From Desulfofustis sp. (GTDB lineage: Bacteria; Desulfobacterota; Desulfobulbia; Desulfobulbales; Desulfocapsaceae), in contig JAJDNR010000077.1 in the NCBI GenBank assembly GCA_022340565.1, positions 1-44,845 of the forward strand: a stretch of 44,845 nucleotides of DNA, written 5' to 3'. The notes under the pieces were generated by a model. That model was not told the origin of the DNA, searched no databases, and worked only from the letters and a program-made list of their open reading frames with translations. Of the stretch, positions 1,227 to 44,845 are shown in pieces; position 1 is the stretch's first letter; each line of letters opens with the position of its first letter. The position numbers and the translations under genes are program-made.

Positions 1227-1975
1227 GGTGCGATTCCCTGTTTTGTTTCCCAGTAGATGATCCTGTCCAACAGATAGTCGATACTGAAATAAAGCATCAG
1301 CGAGGTCGCTGCAAGCAGGGTCAGCGCCGCAAACATTACATCGACCTGCATGCGGGCGTTGGCGTGCAGCATGTAAAAACCAAGGCCACCGCTCGAGCCC
1401 ACCCATTCCCCGACGATTGCCCCGATCGGCGCTACAGCGGTAGCCACCCGCAGCCCCGACGCAAACCCGGGCAGCGCCGATGGAATGATGATATGGCGCA
1501 GCGTGGCCGCTGGTCTTGCATCCATGATGCGGGCCAGATCCAGCAGGTCCGGGCTGGTCCGCCGCATACCCTGGTAAAATGATGCGGCAACCGGAAAAAA
1601 GATGATCAGTACGGCCATCGCAACTTTTGATGCCATCCCGTACCCGAGCCACAGAACCAGGATCGGCGCCAGTGCAAAAACCGGGATAGCCTGGCTGATC
1701 ACGAGAACCGGCTGCATCCACCGTTTCAGCAGCGGCGATACGACCATGGCCAATGCGCAGGAGGTGCCGAGCAGGCTGCCGATGAGTAGGCCGATAATGA
1801 TTTCGATCAGGGTCGTGTTCAGGTGCTTGAGCAGAACCTGCCAATGCTCGACGATGGCGCCTGCAACCGGCAGCGGACCGGGCAATATGAAAGGAGGTAT
1901 CCCGGTGATGAGCACCAGGATCTGCCAGCCACCGAGAAGTCCCCCAGCGAGAATGAGCAGCCGCAGGGAGGTCAT
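1223..1975 (-). CDS. thiX: Thiamine-precursor ABC transporter, permease
   Basis: A 250-residue inner-membrane permease of the binding-protein-dependent (SsuC/TauC/ThiX) type with several hydrophobic segments. The cytoplasmic EAA-type loop is visible around SFYQGMRRTSPDLLDLARIM, where it contacts the ATPase. The gene overlaps the ATPase gene upstream and the binding-protein gene downstream by four bases each, so all three are probably translationally coupled. It would pair with the neighbouring binding protein and ATPase to import a thiamine pyrimidine precursor. Confidence 0.88.
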   Translation of the reverse strand: MTSLRLLILAGGLLGGWQILVLITGIPPFILPGPLPVAGAIVEHWQVLLKHLNTTLIEIIIGLLIGSLLGTSCALAMVVSPLLKRWMQPVLVISQAIPVFALAPILVLWLGYGMASKVAMAVLIIFFPVAASFYQGMRRTSPDLLDLARIMDARPAATLRHIIIPSALPGFASGLRVATAVAPIGAIVGEWVGSSGGLGFYMLHANARMQVDVMFAALTLLAATSLMLYFSIDYLLDRIIYWETKQGIAP

Positions 1976-2739
1976 CGCTGATCCTCCTGCAGAAGCAATT
2001 GCAACAGCGGCCCGTAATGCTCGGAAGTCTCCGGGTTATCCGGCTGACGAGGCGGCGGCGAAGTGAGTTGGAGGCTGGTGATCATCCGCACCGGGGTTCC
2101 GCCCAGGATCACGATCCGATGAGCGAGCCGCAGGGCCTCCATGACGTCGTGGGTGACCAGCAGCGTGGTAGTGCCGCGGGTCATCTCCGCGGACAGGTTC
2201 TGCAGTTTGACCCGGGTCAGCGCATCCAGGGCGGAGAACGGCTCGTCCATCAGCAGGGCCGGGCGGTCTTCCATCAGGGTGCGGAGCAGTGCACAGCGCT
2301 GACGCATACCGCCCGACAAGGCACCGGGAAGGTCGTCTTCATGGCCGGCCAGCCGCGCCCTGGCGATTAGTTTTTGGGCTTTCCGTCGGACCGTATCGGT
2401 GATTTCACCGCGGAGCCGTGCACCGAGCATCACATTGTCGATGAGACTCATCCACGGCAGCAACAGATCGTCCTGTCCCATCCAGGCCACCTTGTTGGAT
2501 GATTCCGGTAAAAAGCTGATGCTGCCCTGCACAGTGAAATCGGCCGACCCGGAAATGAGCCGCAGCAGCGTCGATTTGCCGCAACCGCTCGGACCCAGGA
2601 TGCAGGTGGTCAAGCCCGCCTCGATGGCAAGATCGAGGCTGTCGAACAAGGTTTTCCCGGAATCGAAGCGAAGCCTCAGTCCGGATATGTTGATCGCCGG
2701 AGCGGTCACCGATCCTTCGCCTGGCCGGCCTGGTTTCAT
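1972..2739 (-). CDS. thiZ: Thiamine-precursor ABC transporter, ATP-binding protein
   Basis: A 255-residue ABC ATPase. Walker A GPSGCGKS lies near residues 49-56, followed by the signature LSGGMRQRC, Walker B LLMDEPFSALD and the switch His in VTHD. The ATG at 2739 is preferred because a good ribosome binding site (CTGGAG at 2745-2750) precedes it and the thiM stop lies just upstream. An alternative ATG at 2763 would overlap thiM by 22 bases. The protein energises the adjacent permease. Family members cover nitrate, sulfonate and taurine importers too, but the TPP riboswitch upstream points to a thiamine precursor. Confidence 0.88.
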   Translation of the reverse strand: MKPGRPGEGSVTAPAINISGLRLRFDSGKTLFDSLDLAIEAGLTTCILGPSGCGKSTLLRLISGSADFTVQGSISFLPESSNKVAWMGQDDLLLPWMSLIDNVMLGARLRGEITDTVRRKAQKLIARARLAGHEDDLPGALSGGMRQRCALLRTLMEDRPALLMDEPFSALDALTRVKLQNLSAEMTRGTTTLLVTHDVMEALRLAHRIVILGGTPVRMITSLQLTSPPPRQPDNPETSEHYGPLLQLLLQEDQR

Positions 2740-2741
2740 GG

Positions 2742-3548
2742 TCACTCCAGGCTGAGTCGGCATTCCGCCTTGAGGTCATAGGCAGTCAGTTGATAGAGCG
2801 CATCGAGCAGCGATATCATGAACGACCCAGGTCCTTCCGCGTTCTGGCCGGCCTTTTCTCCGGCCAGCCCGAAATAGGCCAGCCCGGTAGCAGCGGCGCT
2901 CAGCAGGTCGGGGTCGACCGCGGCGAAGGCGCCGATGATCGCCGTTGCAGCACAACCGGTGCCGGTAACCACCGGCATTAGAGAATGACCGTTGCGGACC
3001 CGGATCACCCGGACTCCGTCGGTTACGAAATCAACAGGACCGGTGATGGCAAGTACGGTGCCGAGCTCGCCAGCCAGGGCCATCGCGCTCTCCTCCGCCT
3101 CTGATACGGAATGGAGAGAATCTACCCCCTTGCTTTTCGAGCCTTCGTCCTGCAGGGAGAGGATTTCTGAGGCATTGCCGCGAACGATGGACACCCTGGT
3201 TTCGGCCAGGATTTTTCTGGCGGCCCCGGTACGCATCCTGGTGGCGCCCGCTCCGACCGGATCCAATACAATCGGGGTTCCCAGGTCGCTGGCCCTGCGG
3301 CCGGCCTTCAGCATCGATTCGACCACCGCATCGGTGAGCGTTCCGATATTGAGAACCAGTGCCCCCGCATAGCCGACCATTTCCTCCACTTCGTTTTCTG
3401 CATGGGCCATGACCGGTGAAGCCCCGGCGGCAAGCAGGACATTGGCGGTAAAATTGGTGACCACCAGATTGGTGATGTTGTGAATAAGCGGCTTTTTGAG
3501 GCGGATTTTCTCGAGGTTCTCAGCACATTTTACGGCGAGATCGGACAT
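2742..3548 (-). CDS. thiM: Hydroxyethylthiazole kinase
   Basis: Phosphorylates 4-methyl-5-(2-hydroxyethyl)thiazole, salvaging the thiazole half of thiamine. The 268-residue protein has the usual family length. Conserved blocks are HNITN (23-27), LDPVGAG (95-101), RGNASE (123-128) and the catalytic GTGC (196-199). A strong ribosome binding site (GGGAG) precedes the ATG. It is the first gene after the TPP riboswitch and is followed immediately by ABC-importer genes, so the operon appears to salvage thiazole and import the pyrimidine partner. ThiD and ThiE, needed to finish the route, are not in the window. Confidence 0.95.
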   Translation of the reverse strand: MSDLAVKCAENLEKIRLKKPLIHNITNLVVTNFTANVLLAAGASPVMAHAENEVEEMVGYAGALVLNIGTLTDAVVESMLKAGRRASDLGTPIVLDPVGAGATRMRTGAARKILAETRVSIVRGNASEILSLQDEGSKSKGVDSLHSVSEAEESAMALAGELGTVLAITGPVDFVTDGVRVIRVRNGHSLMPVVTGTGCAATAIIGAFAAVDPDLLSAAATGLAYFGLAGEKAGQNAEGPGSFMISLLDALYQLTAYDLKAECRLSLE

Positions 3549-3910
3549 GACAACTCCCGGTGTCGTTGATTCAGGTTTCGGCAGGAGGCGGAGTCCGATG
3601 CAGCGGCAGACAACCGGAGTAGCTGGGATCGGTGGAAGAACTGCGGCTCCCTACGCTGGTATTAGCCAGATCAGGTTCAACGGGTATTATCTCAGGCCCG
3701 CGGGCCACCCCTGCACTAACAACAATATGAGATCCTTATAAGGTCTTGAGACCCGGGTGTCAACCTTGTCCGACATCATCGAAACGGGAATGTTAACCTA
3801 CCTCCGCTTTGATTTTCGTAAGAACGTGCTTATCGGTTCGAAAAAAGGAAACGTGGATTCCCCGGGGTATTCCATTTTTCTGAAATACCTTAAGAATCAA
3901 GGAGCGATAT
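3549..3910. other. Intergenic region between thiM and a small-protein gene
   Basis: This 362-base stretch holds the TPP riboswitch (3641-3725) and, beyond it, the probable divergent promoters for the thiM operon (minus) and the small gene at 3911 (plus). I see no further coding sequence that can be defended. A minus-strand open frame here lacks family features and a ribosome binding site. Confidence 0.6.
3641..3725 (-). promoter_or_regulatory. TPP riboswitch (THI element) upstream of thiM
   Basis: Read on the minus strand, the segment contains the conserved thi-box landmarks in order: GCAGGGGTGGCC, a short GC hairpin, CTGAGATAATACCC, then GAACCTGATCTGGCTAATACC and AGCGTAGGGA. These match the pyrimidine-sensing and pyrophosphate-sensing arms of the TPP aptamer. 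It sits about 90-180 bases upstream of the thiM start, as expected for repression by thiamine pyrophosphate. Whether control acts by termination or by masking the ribosome binding site is not resolved. Outer boundaries are approximate. Confidence 0.95.
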
Positions 3911-4102
3911 ATGCTAGCAACGGATAAAATCGCCAGCGCCTTTGCAGCGATTTGTGAAGAAGTCGATAAGATCAATAAGGACAAACTGTCCCGCAAAGCG
4001 AAGAAACGCCTGAAAACCATCGTTTCGATCGCCAAACATCAGAGCGATATCAGAGGGGCCGGAACGGGCCATTGTCCGCCACACAAAAAGAGATGCTGCT
4101 GA
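3911..4102 (+). CDS. Small basic protein with a cysteine-rich tail (unknown)
   Basis: A 63-residue protein not recognised as any family. Support for its being real is a near-ideal ribosome binding site (AAGGAG at 3899-3904) seven bases before the ATG. The protein has an amphipathic, lysine-rich helical middle (EEVDKINKDKLSRKAKKRLK) and ends GHCPPHKKRCC, a His/Cys pattern that could bind a metal ion. No signal peptide or membrane segment is visible. Upstream are the divergent thiM operon and its riboswitch; downstream are 260 non-coding bases. Function unknown. Confidence 0.6.
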   Translation: MLATDKIASAFAAICEEVDKINKDKLSRKAKKRLKTIVSIAKHQSDIRGAGTGHCPPHKKRCC

Positions 4103-39760: not shown

Positions 39761-40189
39761 ATGACTGAATGGTTGATCTTTCTGGCAATAGTCCCGCTAT
39801 CCTGCATATATCTGACCAAGAGCATGGAGATAAAAAACAGGATTATGTGGAACGGTATCGCGATCGGGGCGGTAATAGCGCCCGTAAGTTTTGGCTTGAT
39901 TCAGATGACGTATATACCGTTTCTCGGCAAATTTTTAGGGCTTGTTGGGGTTATCGTCAATCTGACGCATGGCTCAATCGGCTATATCAGTTTGCTTTGG
40001 AGTGGAATGATCGAGCCGAACCAGCCGATTACAGCCCTGGAGTTTGTTATGATAAACACCTTCAACGGGGTCCTGTTTGCTTATATCTATGGTTTGATCG
40101 GATATGCAGTCGACAGAAGAATGGCAAAGGAAAAAGACAGAATACCGGCGCTGAAGGCTATGTTTCACACCGTAACTCCTCACTCGTGA
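39761..40189 (+). CDS. Small polytopic membrane protein 1 (unknown, paralogue of the next)
   Basis: A 142-residue protein with about four membrane helices and a short basic tail. Not recognised. It is clearly paralogous to the next gene: both share WLIFLA/YLILLA-I-PLSC at the start, a central APVSF...TY(I/V)P...GKF(L/M)GL(V/I)G block, an EP...TAL(E/Q)F segment and NGV(L/V)FA...Y...IG...VD(R/I)R. A conserved His (HG/HF) and the Glu of EP lie near the membrane and are candidates for a heme or proton role. GAGAGG precedes the ATG. Confidence 0.8.
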   Translation: MTEWLIFLAIVPLSCIYLTKSMEIKNRIMWNGIAIGAVIAPVSFGLIQMTYIPFLGKFLGLVGVIVNLTHGSIGYISLLWSGMIEPNQPITALEFVMINTFNGVLFAYIYGLIGYAVDRRMAKEKDRIPALKAMFHTVTPHS

Positions 40190-40322: not shown

Positions 40323-40733
40323 ATGAGCCAGTACCTGATCCTCTTAGCCTTGATTCCTTTGAGCTGTTTTGAACTTGTTAAGCTGTTTAAATGCCGCTAC
40401 AAAAATACGATCTGCGGATTTTTTACAGGACTGGTCATTGCCCCGGTAAGCTTTGCATGTATTAATTTCACCTATGTGCCGATAATTGGAAAATTCATGG
40501 GATTGATCGGACTCTTTATTCACCTTGCACATTTCTGGTTCGGGTATCTTTGCGTGATCGGCATGGATATTGTCGAGCCGGGGGCTGAAGTAACTGCTCT
40601 GCAGTTTACCCTGATAAGTGGGATTAACGGTGTGGTATTTGCTGCTGTCTATGCCGTCATAGGGTGTATCGTGGATATAAGACGGCGAAACACCATATTC
40701 ACCCGGAAAATTTTCCCTAAGCTTTTATATTAA
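40323..40733 (+). CDS. Small polytopic membrane protein 2 (unknown, paralogue of the previous)
   Basis: A 136-residue protein with about four membrane helices, starting SQYLILLALIPLSCFELVKL, preceded by an excellent ribosome binding site (AGGAGG at 40311-40316). It aligns along its whole length with the preceding protein (APVSFACINFTYVPIIGKF, then VEPGAEVTALQF and NGVVFAAVYAVIG). The tail is Arg/Lys-rich and cytoplasmic. The pair sits behind the cytochrome genes and convergent with a sigma-54 activator. No function can be named; a quinone- or heme-linked membrane partner of the cytochromes is one possibility. Confidence 0.8.
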   Translation: MSQYLILLALIPLSCFELVKLFKCRYKNTICGFFTGLVIAPVSFACINFTYVPIIGKFMGLIGLFIHLAHFWFGYLCVIGMDIVEPGAEVTALQFTLISGINGVVFAAVYAVIGCIVDIRRRNTIFTRKIFPKLLY

Positions 40734-40858: not shown

Positions 40859-42205
40859 CTACTCCTTGTGGATATTGTATTTTTTCATCTTGCGCCAGAG
40901 CGTACTCGGATTTATTGACAGGTACGTTGCCGTAGCGCGTCTGTTCCAGCCGTGCTTTTCAAGGGCGGCTCTGATAGTGCTCTCCTCGGAAGCGGCCAGC
41001 GGTTTTACCGCTGCAATTCCCTCGCCGGCTTTTCTGCTCTGATGGGCATTGCGCAATTCCTTGGGAAGATGGTCCAATTCAATGATGTTTCCATGACAGA
41101 GGATGAAGGCATATTCGATAAAATTTTCCAGTTCCCTGACATTGCCGGGGAATTCATATTCCATGAACACATCGAGAACCTCCTGGGAAACGCCTGTAAT
41201 GCACATTCCTTTGAGAATGTTAAATTTTTCTATGAAATTATCCACGAGGAGTGAGATATCCTCACGGCGTCTGGATAGTGGTGGCAGGTAAATTTTGACA
41301 ACATTGAGGCGATAGAAAAGATCTTCCCTGAATATTTTCTGGTCAACGAGGTCGGCAAGGTTCTTGTTGGTTGCTGCTAAAATCCGAACATCTGCCTTGA
41401 CGGTTTCCATGGATCCAAGCGGTTCGAATTCCATTTTTTCCAGTACCCGCAGCAACTTCATTTGCAAGGCACTTGAAATATCGCCTATTTCGTCGAGCAA
41501 AAAGGTGCCGCCTTCGGCCAGGGAAAACCGACCGGGCTTATCGCGTTTTGCCCCGGTGAAAGCGCCTTTTTTATATCCGAAAAGCTCGGACTCCAATAGA
41601 GTGTCCGGTAGAGCTGTGCAGTTCAGGGCAACAAATTTGCCGGGGCGTTCACTCAGATCATGTATTGCCTTCGCAAATAGCTCTTTTCCGCTGCCGCTTG
41701 GCCCTTCGATCAGAACGGTGCTGTCGCTTTTGGCTATGTCCGGCAGGATGTCGAGAATTTTTTTGATTTCGCGATTCTTGGTGATAATGTCTGATATGGA
41801 ATACAGGCCATCAATTTTTTTGCGCAAATATTCTATTGCGGTGATGTCCCGCATGGTTTCCACACCACCGATAACGTCTCCGAATTCATCCCGGACTACC
41901 GAGGCACTGATGGTTACCGGTATCTGCCGACCATCTATGCTGACAATAGTGGTTTTTCTGGAAAGCTTCTCTTCGCCGGTCAGCATGCTTTCCTTCAAAA
42001 AACAGTGCTTCTTGCATTGATCGCTGGTGCCTCCTAAAACTTCGTAACATTTTTTCCCGACAGCCTGATCTTTCTTTACACCGGTCAACTTTTCTGCGGC
42101 GTGATTGAAATAGGTAATCGTCTGATCACAGTCGATGATAAAAATACCATCGGCAATGGAATCGATAATGATATTGACGCAGTCTTGATCACTTTTTTTA
42201 AACAC
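40859..42205 (-). CDS. PAS-domain sigma-54 transcriptional activator with a PAS cysteine cluster
   Basis: A 448-residue one-component activator. The N-terminal PAS domain (about 10-125: SIADGIFIIDCDQTITYFN) contains Cys53, Cys64 and Cys68 (C-x10-C-x3-C), a possible redox, heme or metal sensor. The AAA+ domain has Walker A GPSGSGKE (168-175), GAFTGA (214-219) and Walker B TFLLDEIGD (234-242); the C-terminal Fis-type helix-turn-helix reads WNRRATATYLSINPSTLWRKM. The start is GTG at 42205, behind GGGGG. It has no receiver, so the signal is sensed directly. It converges on the membrane-protein/cytochrome genes and is their most likely regulator. Confidence 0.92.
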   Translation of the reverse strand: MFKKSDQDCVNIIIDSIADGIFIIDCDQTITYFNHAAEKLTGVKKDQAVGKKCYEVLGGTSDQCKKHCFLKESMLTGEEKLSRKTTIVSIDGRQIPVTISASVVRDEFGDVIGGVETMRDITAIEYLRKKIDGLYSISDIITKNREIKKILDILPDIAKSDSTVLIEGPSGSGKELFAKAIHDLSERPGKFVALNCTALPDTLLESELFGYKKGAFTGAKRDKPGRFSLAEGGTFLLDEIGDISSALQMKLLRVLEKMEFEPLGSMETVKADVRILAATNKNLADLVDQKIFREDLFYRLNVVKIYLPPLSRRREDISLLVDNFIEKFNILKGMCITGVSQEVLDVFMEYEFPGNVRELENFIEYAFILCHGNIIELDHLPKELRNAHQSRKAGEGIAAVKPLAASEESTIRAALEKHGWNRRATATYLSINPSTLWRKMKKYNIHKE

Positions 42206-42416: not shown

Positions 42417-43304
42417 CTAGCCGGTAATCGCCTTCAGCCGCTCGCTGTCGACGACCCCGTCCTCGTCGATCAGCACGTCGATCAGCTCCATGTCCACCAG
42501 GTCGTGAGAGTGGGTCGTCAGCTTGTAGGTAGTGCGTGAGGAGGCGATCTTCTGGTCGGCACGATAGATCCGCTGGGCTTCAGCGAGGCCGTGGGAGAAA
42601 TGGAATGAATTGGCGAACAGATAGCTCTTGATGCCGTTGTGGCGGCAGAGGCTCAGCGTCGTGCTGGTGCCCACCGGGGCCACCACTTTGAGGTCCCGGG
42701 TCACGCTGACCCCTCCGAGCAGGATCTTGTTGGCCTTGTTGACATAGTGGTCGAGATTGAAGGCGGGGATCACGATGTGGGGAATGTCGTGTTGTTTGAG
42801 TGACAGTGCCACCTGGGGAGTGCGCACCGGATCGAGCTGGAGGACGATCACCGAAAAGTTCTTGAGCAGTACCTCCTTGGCCTGAATCAGCACATTGGTG
42901 ACCATCGAGCTTGCCGAGTGCACGACGATGCCGTCGCGCTCCTCGATAATCTGGATGCCGTGTCGGACCACCCGTTCCGCCCGAGACTGGAACAGTTTCA
43001 CCTTGTCATTGAGAATTTTTGCGGCGGTTTCTTTAATGTCCTGCTTTTCTTTGGACCAGCAGGGCTTCATTTCTTCTTCGAACTGTTCCAGCATATGGTT
43101 CAGCGGCGTGATCTGGGGCTGAGTCCCCTTTATTGCAGCGGCCAGTTCGGTGTAGCGCTCATAGATGTCTTCCTGAGAACATTCCAACTCGGCGAATGCT
43201 CCGATCAGCGACTTGAGCGCCATGACCGTGGTGCGGGCGGCGCCGAGAACGTTGCCGTGATAGAGAAACAGCTTGTCCAGATTGTCTTTCTCGACTTGGT
43301 TCAT
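42417..43304 (-). CDS. eIF-2B alpha/beta/delta-like protein
   Basis: A 295-residue protein related to the eIF-2B / methylthioribose-1-phosphate isomerase / ribose-1,5-bisphosphate isomerase superfamily. An N-terminal helical domain (about 1-130) precedes a Rossmann-like domain with GIVVHSASSMVTNVL, VIVLQLDPVRTPQVAL, GGVSVTRDLKVVAPVGTSTTLSL and the family end YKLTTHSHDLVDMELIDVL. The Cys and Asp used by the isomerases appear replaced (HSASS at the Cys site, Lys at the Asp site), so a ligand-binding or regulatory role is plausible. ATG 43304 overlaps the permease stop by four bases (ATGA); ATG 43316 is an alternative. Confidence 0.8.
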   Translation of the reverse strand: MNQVEKDNLDKLFLYHGNVLGAARTTVMALKSLIGAFAELECSQEDIYERYTELAAAIKGTQPQITPLNHMLEQFEEEMKPCWSKEKQDIKETAAKILNDKVKLFQSRAERVVRHGIQIIEERDGIVVHSASSMVTNVLIQAKEVLLKNFSVIVLQLDPVRTPQVALSLKQHDIPHIVIPAFNLDHYVNKANKILLGGVSVTRDLKVVAPVGTSTTLSLCRHNGIKSYLFANSFHFSHGLAEAQRIYRADQKIASSRTTYKLTTHSHDLVDMELIDVLIDEDGVVDSERLKAITG

Positions 43305-44605
43305 AAGCTCAGCCATAAATAGAGGGAGAGGTACCCGGAAGCGACGCAGAGGGTCACGATGGTCAGCAGGGCGCTCGTCTTCATGAATTCCAGGAAGCTG
43401 ATCTTCACGCCCGACTGTTTGGCCATGCCGACCGACACGATATTGGCGGACGCCCCGATCATGGTCAGGTTGCCCCCGAAACAGGCTCCCAGGGCCAGGG
43501 CCCACCATAAGATATTGTTGGGGATGGGGGTAGTCTCCATCATCAGCCTGACCACCGGTATCATCGTAATAGTGAACGGGATGTTGTCGAGGAAGCCCGA
43601 GGCAAAGCCCGACACCCAGAGGACCGTCAGCACGATCACGTACGGGTTGTCGCCCACCCGTAAAAACACGTTGTGGGCGATCCACTCGATCACCCCCTTT
43701 TCCTCGAGGACTCCGACCAGGATGAACAGACCGGCGAAGAAGAGCAAAGTGCTCCACTCGATCTCCTCGAGCATCTCTTCGACGTCCACCCCGGAGATGG
43801 TGAACAGGATCATCGCCATCAGCATCGCAACCACCCCGGGCGAGAGCTTGGTGACGGTCTGGGTGACGAAGAGCACAATGGCGATGATCAGGCACGATAC
43901 GCCTTTGACGAGCAGGACGGAATCGATCGGCCGGTTGAGAAAGTCGAGACGGATTTTTTCGAGCAGCAGCCGGGTTGAAAACAGCTTCGTGAGGCTGGTA
44001 TTGACCGGCCTGAACACCTCTCTGTTCATCGCCCAGATGAGCACCAGGCCGAGTGCCAGGGACAGGGTTACCGGCACGAACAGGTTGATCGCGAATTGGT
44101 TGAAGGTGAGGCCGACCTTCGATCCGATAATGATGTTCGGCGGATCGCCGATCAGTGTAGCGGTCCCGCCGATGTTGGATATGAGCGCCTGGCTTATGAC
44201 GAACAGCGTCGGATTGAGCCCCATGCCGGCGGTCAACTCGACGACGATGGGGACGATGATCAGTACCGTCGTCACGTTGTCGAGAAAGGCGGACATAGTC
44301 GCGGTGACTGCCGAGAACAGGATGAGGATCTTGAGCGGGCTGCCCTTGGTCAGTTCCGCTATCTTGACGCTGAGCAAGGTAAAGATCCCCGATTTTCGAA
44401 GAATCACCACGATGGCCATCATGCCGAGCAGCAGCATAATCGTTTCCACATCGATCAGCCCGAGGGCGTGGTGATCGCTGATCACATGCGCCGCCAGCAG
44501 AATCATCACGCCGAGCATGGCGGCCACGGCCTTGTTCACCACTTCGAAGGTGATCGCAACGTAGACGGCAAGAAAAATGATGATGGGGAGGATGGCTCCT
44601 TCCAT
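43301..44605 (-). CDS. ArsB/NhaD-type ion transporter (permease)
   Basis: A 434-residue inner-membrane permease with about 11-12 helices. The two inverted-repeat signatures are clear: SAFLDNVTTVLIIVPI with GGTATLIGDPPNIIIGS in the first half, and GFLDNIPFTITMIPVV with GACFGGNLTMIGASANIVS in the second. These fit the ion-transporter superfamily (ArsB arsenite exporter, NhaD Na+/H+ antiporter, P-protein). No arsenic genes are adjacent, so Na+/H+ or anion transport is as likely as arsenite. AAGGAG precedes the ATG at 44605. It overlaps the eIF-2B-like gene, which suggests co-function. Confidence 0.9.
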   Translation of the reverse strand: MEGAILPIIIFLAVYVAITFEVVNKAVAAMLGVMILLAAHVISDHHALGLIDVETIMLLLGMMAIVVILRKSGIFTLLSVKIAELTKGSPLKILILFSAVTATMSAFLDNVTTVLIIVPIVVELTAGMGLNPTLFVISQALISNIGGTATLIGDPPNIIIGSKVGLTFNQFAINLFVPVTLSLALGLVLIWAMNREVFRPVNTSLTKLFSTRLLLEKIRLDFLNRPIDSVLLVKGVSCLIIAIVLFVTQTVTKLSPGVVAMLMAMILFTISGVDVEEMLEEIEWSTLLFFAGLFILVGVLEEKGVIEWIAHNVFLRVGDNPYVIVLTVLWVSGFASGFLDNIPFTITMIPVVRLMMETTPIPNNILWWALALGACFGGNLTMIGASANIVSVGMAKQSGVKISFLEFMKTSALLTIVTLCVASGYLSLYLWLSL

Positions 44606-44845
44606 GGATTGCTCCTTGTCTCAGACGATCGGATGGATTCCCTGGTCTGGGTAATCTTGTGTTACCGAAAAGGCGACGCGAAAATTTGACGGCATTGTCT
44701 TCCAGGTCGCTACCGGGCGGTGATGCCGCTCGGAAACGACCGCGGCGGATGCAGGTGTTTCTGCCAGAAGTGTGTTATACGGGGTCTTTGAGAAAAAGTC
44801 CAGAACCTTGGCAAGGCTTGCAGGATCGATGCGGCATCGACCGCT
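44606..44845. other. Right-edge region upstream of the permease
   Basis: 240 bases containing the ribosome binding site and presumably the promoter for the permease operon. I see no gene, RNA or repeat here that I can support; a gene could continue past the window edge. Confidence 0.35.

Follow-up and report, generated by a model that had tools for sequence, protein, structure and literature searches.

We analysed a stretch of 44,845 nucleotides from Desulfofustis sp. (GenBank assembly GCA_022340565.1, contig JAJDNR010000077.1), hereafter the window, which represents the whole of one contig (C40) of a draft genome. It carries on its minus strand a pair of genes coding for a permease and for a protein with the fold of eIF2B. 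The first gene of the pair (43301..44605) encodes a permease of 434 residues of the CitMHS type, within the ion transporter superfamily, as judged from Pfam and NCBIfam matches and from solved relatives. The second (42417..43304) encodes an eIF2B-like protein of 295 residues that belongs to the Pfam IF-2B family, a placement based on the Pfam match, a predicted structure and its comparison with known structures. The two reading frames share four nucleotides (43301..43304), the TGA stop codon of the permease (43303..43301) and the ATG of the eIF2B-like gene (43304..43302) forming an ATGA; a stop-start overlap had been claimed from the sequence alone by a first reading of the window (hereafter the sequence-only reading). 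The stop codon of the second gene ends at 42417. An alternative ATG at 43316 is possible, but the conserved start is the ATGA one, which was found in 34 of 44 homologous loci. The permease start is preceded by an AAGGAG ribosome-binding motif (44612..44617, minus strand), a match of 6 bases to the consensus, and the eIF2B-like start by a match of 3 bases at most. The conserved pair is real and, on sequence grounds, the eIF2B-like protein can be regarded as a distinct branch of IF-2B devoid of catalytic residues; we infer from these data the mechanism proposed below.

The permease reaches 270.5 bits against the Pfam model CitMHS (PF03600), for a cut-off of 31.9, and also passes the broad models PF02040 (ArsB; 50.6 versus 22.2 bits) and PF00939 (54.6 versus 27 bits). 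It falls below every NCBIfam cut-off for ArsB (84.3 versus 457, 65.8 versus 760 and 65.3 versus 415 bits) and below those for NhaD (48.2 versus 577.1 and 32.1 versus 80 bits), and misses the DASS cut-off of 198.6 bits. Its best NCBIfam match, MamN, scores 177.3 bits under a cut-off of 500. MamN, ArsB, NhaD and DASS transporters are members of the same ion transporter superfamily, and the 'ArsB/NhaD-type' label of the sequence-only reading holds only at the level of that superfamily, as no NCBIfam cut-off for ArsB, NhaD or MamN was reached, although the broad Pfam ArsB model is passed. Profile searches recovered as solved relatives NadC/DASS transporters such as VcINDY, SLC13 members and an arsenical pump. 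By these scores, the permease is close to no characterised NCBIfam transporter family.

The eIF2B-like protein passes the Pfam IF-2B cut-off (80.2 versus 22.4 bits) and misses those of the NCBIfam families for ribose-1,5-bisphosphate (R15P) isomerase (R15Pi; 38.8 versus 314.1 bits), eIF-2B_rel (30.4 versus 185.85 bits), PRK05720 (26.6 versus 271 bits) and PRK08335, the aIF2B alpha group (53.9 versus 339 bits). A model was obtained with AlphaFold2 on seven homologues, with a mean predicted local distance difference test (pLDDT) of 78 and a predicted template modelling score of 0.73, residues 245-265 being under 50. This model superimposes on the archaeal eIF-2B protein 1vb5 (Z 26.2, root-mean-square deviation (rmsd) 3.0, 262 residues), on R15P isomerase (5yfj: Z 25.7, rmsd 3.5, 278 residues; 5yfs: Z 25.5), on a human eIF2B subunit (9hve_G: Z 25.7, rmsd 3.8, 285 residues), which we read from its residue numbers as the delta subunit, and on Bacillus MtnA (2yvk: Z 24.1, rmsd 3.8, 282 residues). 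Matches within 1 Z were treated as tied, so that the scores do not rank the nearest relative; a profile search listed 1vb5 first (3.4e-22) and R15P isomerase second (8e-20). Judging from the model, the IF-2B fold is kept over nearly the full length of the protein, which shares it with the R15P isomerases (PH0208 and its Thermococcus homologue) as well as with eIF2B alpha, beta and delta, which also lack catalysis. The eIF2B regulatory subunits differ in that the partner of the window protein is the gene of a membrane transporter and, to our knowledge, bacteria have no eIF2.

The sites that would be needed for isomerase chemistry can be located by alignment with the Pyrococcus R15Pi PH0208, whose residue roles are described in PMC5789824. 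In this enzyme, Cys135 and Asp204 are catalytic, Asp204, Asn214 and Lys215 hold the sugar, Arg22, Arg65, Gln166 and Lys215 contact the 1-phosphate, the side chains of Ser137 and Lys240 contact the 5-phosphate, and Arg124, Arg190, Lys194, Asn209, Arg229, Trp231 and Asp290 contact adenosine monophosphate (AMP). The HSASS motif of the window protein (residues 129-133; 42906..42920, minus strand, as for all codons given here) places Ser130 at the catalytic Cys135, as the sequence-only reading had proposed, and Ser132 at Ser137. The second catalytic site had been read as a Lys; it is Val199, in GGVSVT (42708..42710), which aligns with Asp204. The sugar-holding Asn214 and Lys215 are replaced by Ala209 and Pro210 (42675..42680), the 1-phosphate contacts by Leu20, Gln62, Thr162 and Pro210, and Lys240 by His235 (42600..42602). 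At the AMP places, taken in the R15Pi order, the window protein has Ile119, Asp185, Asn189, Asp204, Gly224, Lys226 and Asp276, the last of which is the single contact kept of the seven.

The replacements at the catalytic and sugar-holding sites are common to the whole family, over 47 distinct sequences of which the residue counts were taken. The catalytic Cys place holds no Cys (30 Ser, 14 Thr, 1 Ala, 1 Met and 1 Asn) and the catalytic Asp place no Asp (20 Val, 19 Leu, 6 Ile and 2 Met), which upholds, each at its own column, the non-catalytic nature that had been suggested for the protein. Asn214, Lys215 and Arg22 are likewise absent from 47/47, so that five residues of the R15P isomerases (Cys135, Asp204, Arg22, Asn214 and Lys215) are replaced in every one of these family members; Arg65 is found in 8. 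Conversely, the Ser137 place holds Ser in 36 and Thr in 8 of the 47, the Lys240 place Lys in 35 and His, as in the window, in 11, and the Asp290 place Asp in 43. A shift of the catalytic residues to other positions had been named beforehand as a test that would refute this, and the outcome favours the sequence-only reading: no Cys occurs at positions 128-132 nor any Asp at 197-201 in the 47 sequences, so that a short shift does not restore the site; two of them (L045, L046) have a Glu at 197, two columns before the Asp site. The host genome codes for one other IF-2B protein (contig C73, 10034-10933, plus strand), which passes the MtnA equivalog cut-off (402.5 versus 279 bits) and, aligned with the family as a positive control, has HC and GTD...NK in the columns concerned, which supports the alignment and indicates that the enzyme is present elsewhere in the cell. 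As far as the alignment tells, residues for catalysis and for holding the sugar are thus lost throughout the family, which has retained some of its 5-phosphate site. The suggestion that the ligand-binding fold is kept therefore holds for the fold (Z of about 26 against aIF2B and R15Pi), not for the ligand contacts Asn, Lys and Arg22.

The loss of the Cys is not confined to the pair. For six weak IF-2B matches (35.0-55.6 bits with a 49-row profile; L063, L103, L106-L109), the stretch examined contains no permease of this type. Three of these, from the same phylum (L106-L108), combine HS-x-S-S with GAD...NK or GTD...NK, and L109 has HC. The Pyrococcus horikoshii protein 1vb5, which we take to be PH0440 and which stands with the PRK08335 group, shares the Cys-less HS-x-S-S with the window protein; in the profile alignment, 1vb5 shows HSFSS and GADMITKDGYVVNK. 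It differs in keeping GAD...NK, which the window protein does not, and we know of no link between it and a permease. Inferred from motifs and unrooted, the order of loss would be one in which the Cys-less motif is common to a wider group, the permease-paired branch being set apart by having lost Asp, Asn and Lys.

The main survey covered 389 genomes of another class of the same phylum (the class of genome G347); scoring was limited to six first-look candidates per genome for the eIF2B-like profile and to four for the permease profile, which makes counts of unpaired genes lower bounds. The eIF2B-like profile gave 49 matches in 43 genomes. Five were set aside, namely a fragment at a contig end (G455:C26), remnants in G712 and G584:C206, a distant protein in G640 and a weak match in G601. 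Immediately upstream of each of the 44 full-length homologues, and in the same orientation, lies the permease; at one of these loci (L057, G485:C91), the permease is broken in two pieces and is not counted among the permeases that follow. Reciprocally, 44 permeases score at least 572 bits with the permease profile, including one cut by a contig end (G568) and one with its first ~70 residues in another frame (G758), and 43 of them have an eIF2B-like partner. Other permeases reach at most 340 bits, save pieces of this type that are broken or lie at a contig edge (304-397 bits), leaving a clear score gap. Conservation of the pair in other genomes, another test set beforehand, is therefore observed from both sides, and a pairing of 44/44 together with Cys 0/47 and Asp 0/47 is far beyond chance. 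A pattern scan of species genomes retrieved six loci, all with the permease just upstream and the ATGA, which is also present in both other Desulfofustis genomes with the pair. One of the six loci is that of the cultured Desulfocicer vacuolatum DSM 3385 (L011). Two pairs each occur in G485, G622, G748 and G778, one of those in G485 being the pair with the broken permease. Some loci were recovered twice (L014 is L016 and L011 is L018; L012 and L013 are the same as, or near-identical to, L017 and L015).

Closer to the window, a search of relatives covered 58 genomes. Within the class of the window itself (257 genomes), strong eIF2B-like matches are confined to three Desulfofustis genomes, that of the window included, with a weak match of 43 bits in G817. 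These same three, of the five genomes of the genus, contain both genes, and neither gene was found in the other two; a 43-residue match at a contig end in G002 (L004) was not counted as a second copy. Among 395 genomes drawn across the phylum and searched with narrow and broader profiles, strong matches occur only in the window genome and in G347, and 11 others are weak (at most 53 bits). All occurrences of the pair in this analysis fall within one phylum, in sulfate reducers and bacteria related to them, the only scan beyond the phylum having used two narrow patterns. In both gene trees, the Desulfofustis copies are nearest to those of G453 (L023) and G799 (L022), which belong to the other class, and a transfer of the pair into Desulfofustis is therefore likely. 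The pairwise tree distances of the two proteins are correlated (r = 0.80; 0/1000 label shuffles as high), and 27 of 45 splits are common to both trees, which are quick trees with some long branches and hold 48 rows for 47 distinct pairs (L011 is counted beside L018). Judged from these trees, the two genes have been inherited together, and hence probably form one functional unit.

How the second gene is translated bears on the same question. A match of at least 4 nucleotides to the ribosome-binding consensus is found at the eIF2B-like start in 6 of 38 ATGA rows versus 39 of 47 rows at the permease start. In 18 of 24 groups, the motif is used about equally at overlapping and leading genes, and six groups use strong motifs less at overlaps (PMC6728339). 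The rarity of the motif at eIF2B-like starts, relative to permease starts rather than to other ATGA pairs, suggests that translation of the eIF2B-like protein depends on that of the permease. Short overlaps are enriched in genes for subunits of heteromeric complexes (PMC10666635).

We consider it slightly more probable than its alternatives combined that the pair is one functional unit made of a secondary transporter and a dedicated cytoplasmic partner of the eIF2B/R15P-isomerase fold, probably a regulatory subunit. Ribosomes that have completed the permease would go straight on to make the partner, which would bind the permease at the inner face of the membrane, perhaps as a dimer, and set its activity, in a role like that of TeaD with TeaABC or GlnK with AmtB. 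Any small-molecule ligand would be phosphorylated or otherwise anionic, a suggestion based on the survival of Ser/Thr132 and Lys/His235, and would be held differently from R15P, AMP or fructose-6-phosphate.

Several observations weigh against this proposal. The structure prediction of the permease had a mean pLDDT of 39, too low to support a structural statement on a complex. Ten of the 44 loci lack the ATGA, with gaps of 1, 19, 36, 37, 37, 38, 38, 72, 85 and 120 nucleotides, counted from the end of the permease stop codon to script-chosen starts, and gaps of ~20 nucleotides almost abolish coupling in Escherichia coli and Haloferax (PMC10666635). At least one near-complete permease stands without an eIF2B-like partner (G607, L064) and at least one distant eIF2B-like protein of 147 bits without a permease (G640, L059). 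Moreover, the trees differ in 18 of the 45 splits and, among others, in the placement of L052 and of the G347-type copies (L015-L017), and agreement between trees partly reflects shared species history and is support rather than proof. The eIF2B-like protein evolves faster than the permease, by a factor of ~1.7, a difference that gives no indication of a tight and old interface. Finally, the overlap and the co-inheritance are also compatible with an enzyme for the transported compound, or with a factor for folding or assembly.

The first of these alternatives, an enzyme with a rebuilt active site acting on a compound imported or exported by the permease, is unlikely. Polar residues that could serve a new chemistry are indeed near-invariant (Glu76, Thr162, His186, Asp204, His238, Ser266 and His267 at 94-100%, His129 and Ser/Thr132 at 86-94%, window numbering), and transporter-enzyme pairs are common. 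Nevertheless, the residues of the known chemistry are gone in 47/47, no further gene accompanies the pair in 23 distinct stretches, and the close stop-start overlap is of a kind enriched in subunits of one complex (PMC10666635). That the partner would be a ligand-free factor for folding, assembly or stability, with the eIF2B fold as a mere scaffold as in eIF2B beta and delta, is a reading to which we give a low probability. It would accord with the loss of the sugar-holding residues, which eIF2B beta and delta have also lost (positions matched by motif), no ligand having been seen in these two subunits, which lack E198 and N208 (PMC8187479); translation right after the permease would also suit co-translational assembly. 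On the other hand, Ser/Thr132 occurs together with Lys235 in 32 of the 47 sequences, suggesting that some pocket is still under selection.

A comparison with CitMHS permeases that are more remote from this type, in the same class, also favours control over pure assembly. Of 16 such loci, at least 5 have a same-strand neighbour gene coding for a protein of the Usp (L066, L067, L068) or CBS (L072, L074) kind, and at L074 (1329-3193) the CBS gene overlaps the permease by 4 nucleotides. A further caution for a regulatory partner is that this comparison rests on six neighbours scanned, one of which (L073) is DsrE-like. Usp and CBS proteins bind adenine nucleotides. It may be that permeases of the CitMHS type have acquired nucleotide-binding partners from the cytoplasm more than once, and that the eIF2B-like protein fills the corresponding role. 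GlnK and AmtB provide a known case of a transporter with a cytoplasmic regulator; the folds of GlnK (PII) and TeaD (Usp), and the transporter families they serve, are unrelated to those of the window pair. TeaD modulates the TeaABC transporter, an arrangement in which a transporter gene lies beside that of a small-molecule-binding cytoplasmic tuner (PMC9006882), as proposed for the pair.

A classical sensor of sugar phosphates or nucleotides that would use the ancestral pocket in the manner of eIF2B alpha, as the sequence-only reading had suggested, is improbable. The full-length fold and part of the 5-phosphate contacts are kept in the family, but the residues do not predict the binding of the usual sugar phosphates or of AMP, given the Asn, Lys and Arg22 missing throughout and the single AMP contact retained in the window protein. 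E198 and N208 of human eIF2B alpha, which are needed for binding (PMC8187479), would correspond to Val199 and Ala209, and R132 and K234 to Ser133 and His235, all four being matched by HS-x-S/G-A-x motifs and not by residue alignment. An ordinary MtnA or R15P isomerase adjoining the permease by chance, to which the Pfam IF-2B match alone would lead, can be dismissed on sequence, considering the missing Cys and Asp, scores far under the R15Pi, eIF-2B_rel and PRK05720 cut-offs, and the separate MtnA of the genome, with its catalytic residues and a score above its cut-off.

A transporter with a dedicated regulatory partner would have wider implications. That an eIF2B-fold pseudo-isomerase acts as a metabolite-gated regulatory subunit on a member of the ion transporter superfamily, and thereby represents a new class of transporter control, is a tentative proposal that we hold to be possible rather than probable. 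The eIF2B fold is otherwise found in isomerases, in the eukaryotic translation regulator and in archaeal proteins of unclear role, and a bacterial branch without catalytic residues that accompanies a single transporter family would add another use to these. If true, a fold that couples nutrient state to translation in eukaryotes would here couple nutrient state to membrane transport. The pair offers a testable case of a metabolic pseudoenzyme turned transporter subunit, and D. vacuolatum DSM 3385 allows a direct test. Neither the pair nor its family was found described in the open-licence literature searched.

The gene neighbourhood was compared over 25 stretches, 23 of them distinct, and no third gene accompanies the pair: apart from the two genes themselves, the most frequent neighbours form a loose cluster that occurs in 10 of the 23 at varying places. 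The permease count of this comparison is low, the choice of reading frames having replaced the permease by overlapping frames in L093, L097, L099, L101 and the window. A wider operon was rejected, as recurring neighbours lie mostly on the opposite strand (e.g., Pfam matches to ClpB, glutamyl-tRNA reductase, a sirohaem-type protein and a protein of cytochrome c assembly). Downstream, the window has a sigma-54 regulator (40859-42205), which was considered as a partner and rejected, since it belongs to the loose cluster. A plasmid-borne unit was also set aside, as the plasmid collection gave no hit at E 1e-5.

Other arrangements were noted at the loci examined. At L064 (G607:C95, 1761-3928), the end of the permease overlaps the start of an MlaE-family permease gene in place of an eIF2B-like partner, possibly a local swap or an assembly join. 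At L063 (G601:C241), a NUDIX-domain gene (2584-3018; 38.0 bits, cut-off 21.1) ends 4 bases inside the IF-2B gene (3015-3950; 151.9 bits, cut-off 22.4). The host contig C73, which bears mtnA, also has a weak match to the RuBisCO large family (1386-1958, minus strand; 31.3 bits, cut-off 30.1), and is perhaps a methionine-salvage region. Finally, two adjoining genes on the plus strand of the window (39761-40189 and 40323-40733) code for small hydrophobic proteins 43% identical over 120 residues. They have no Pfam or NCBIfam match and, judging from their resemblance, arose by tandem duplication within an unnamed family; genes for a multihaem cytochrome c and for a protein of the cytochrome b561 type lie next to them.

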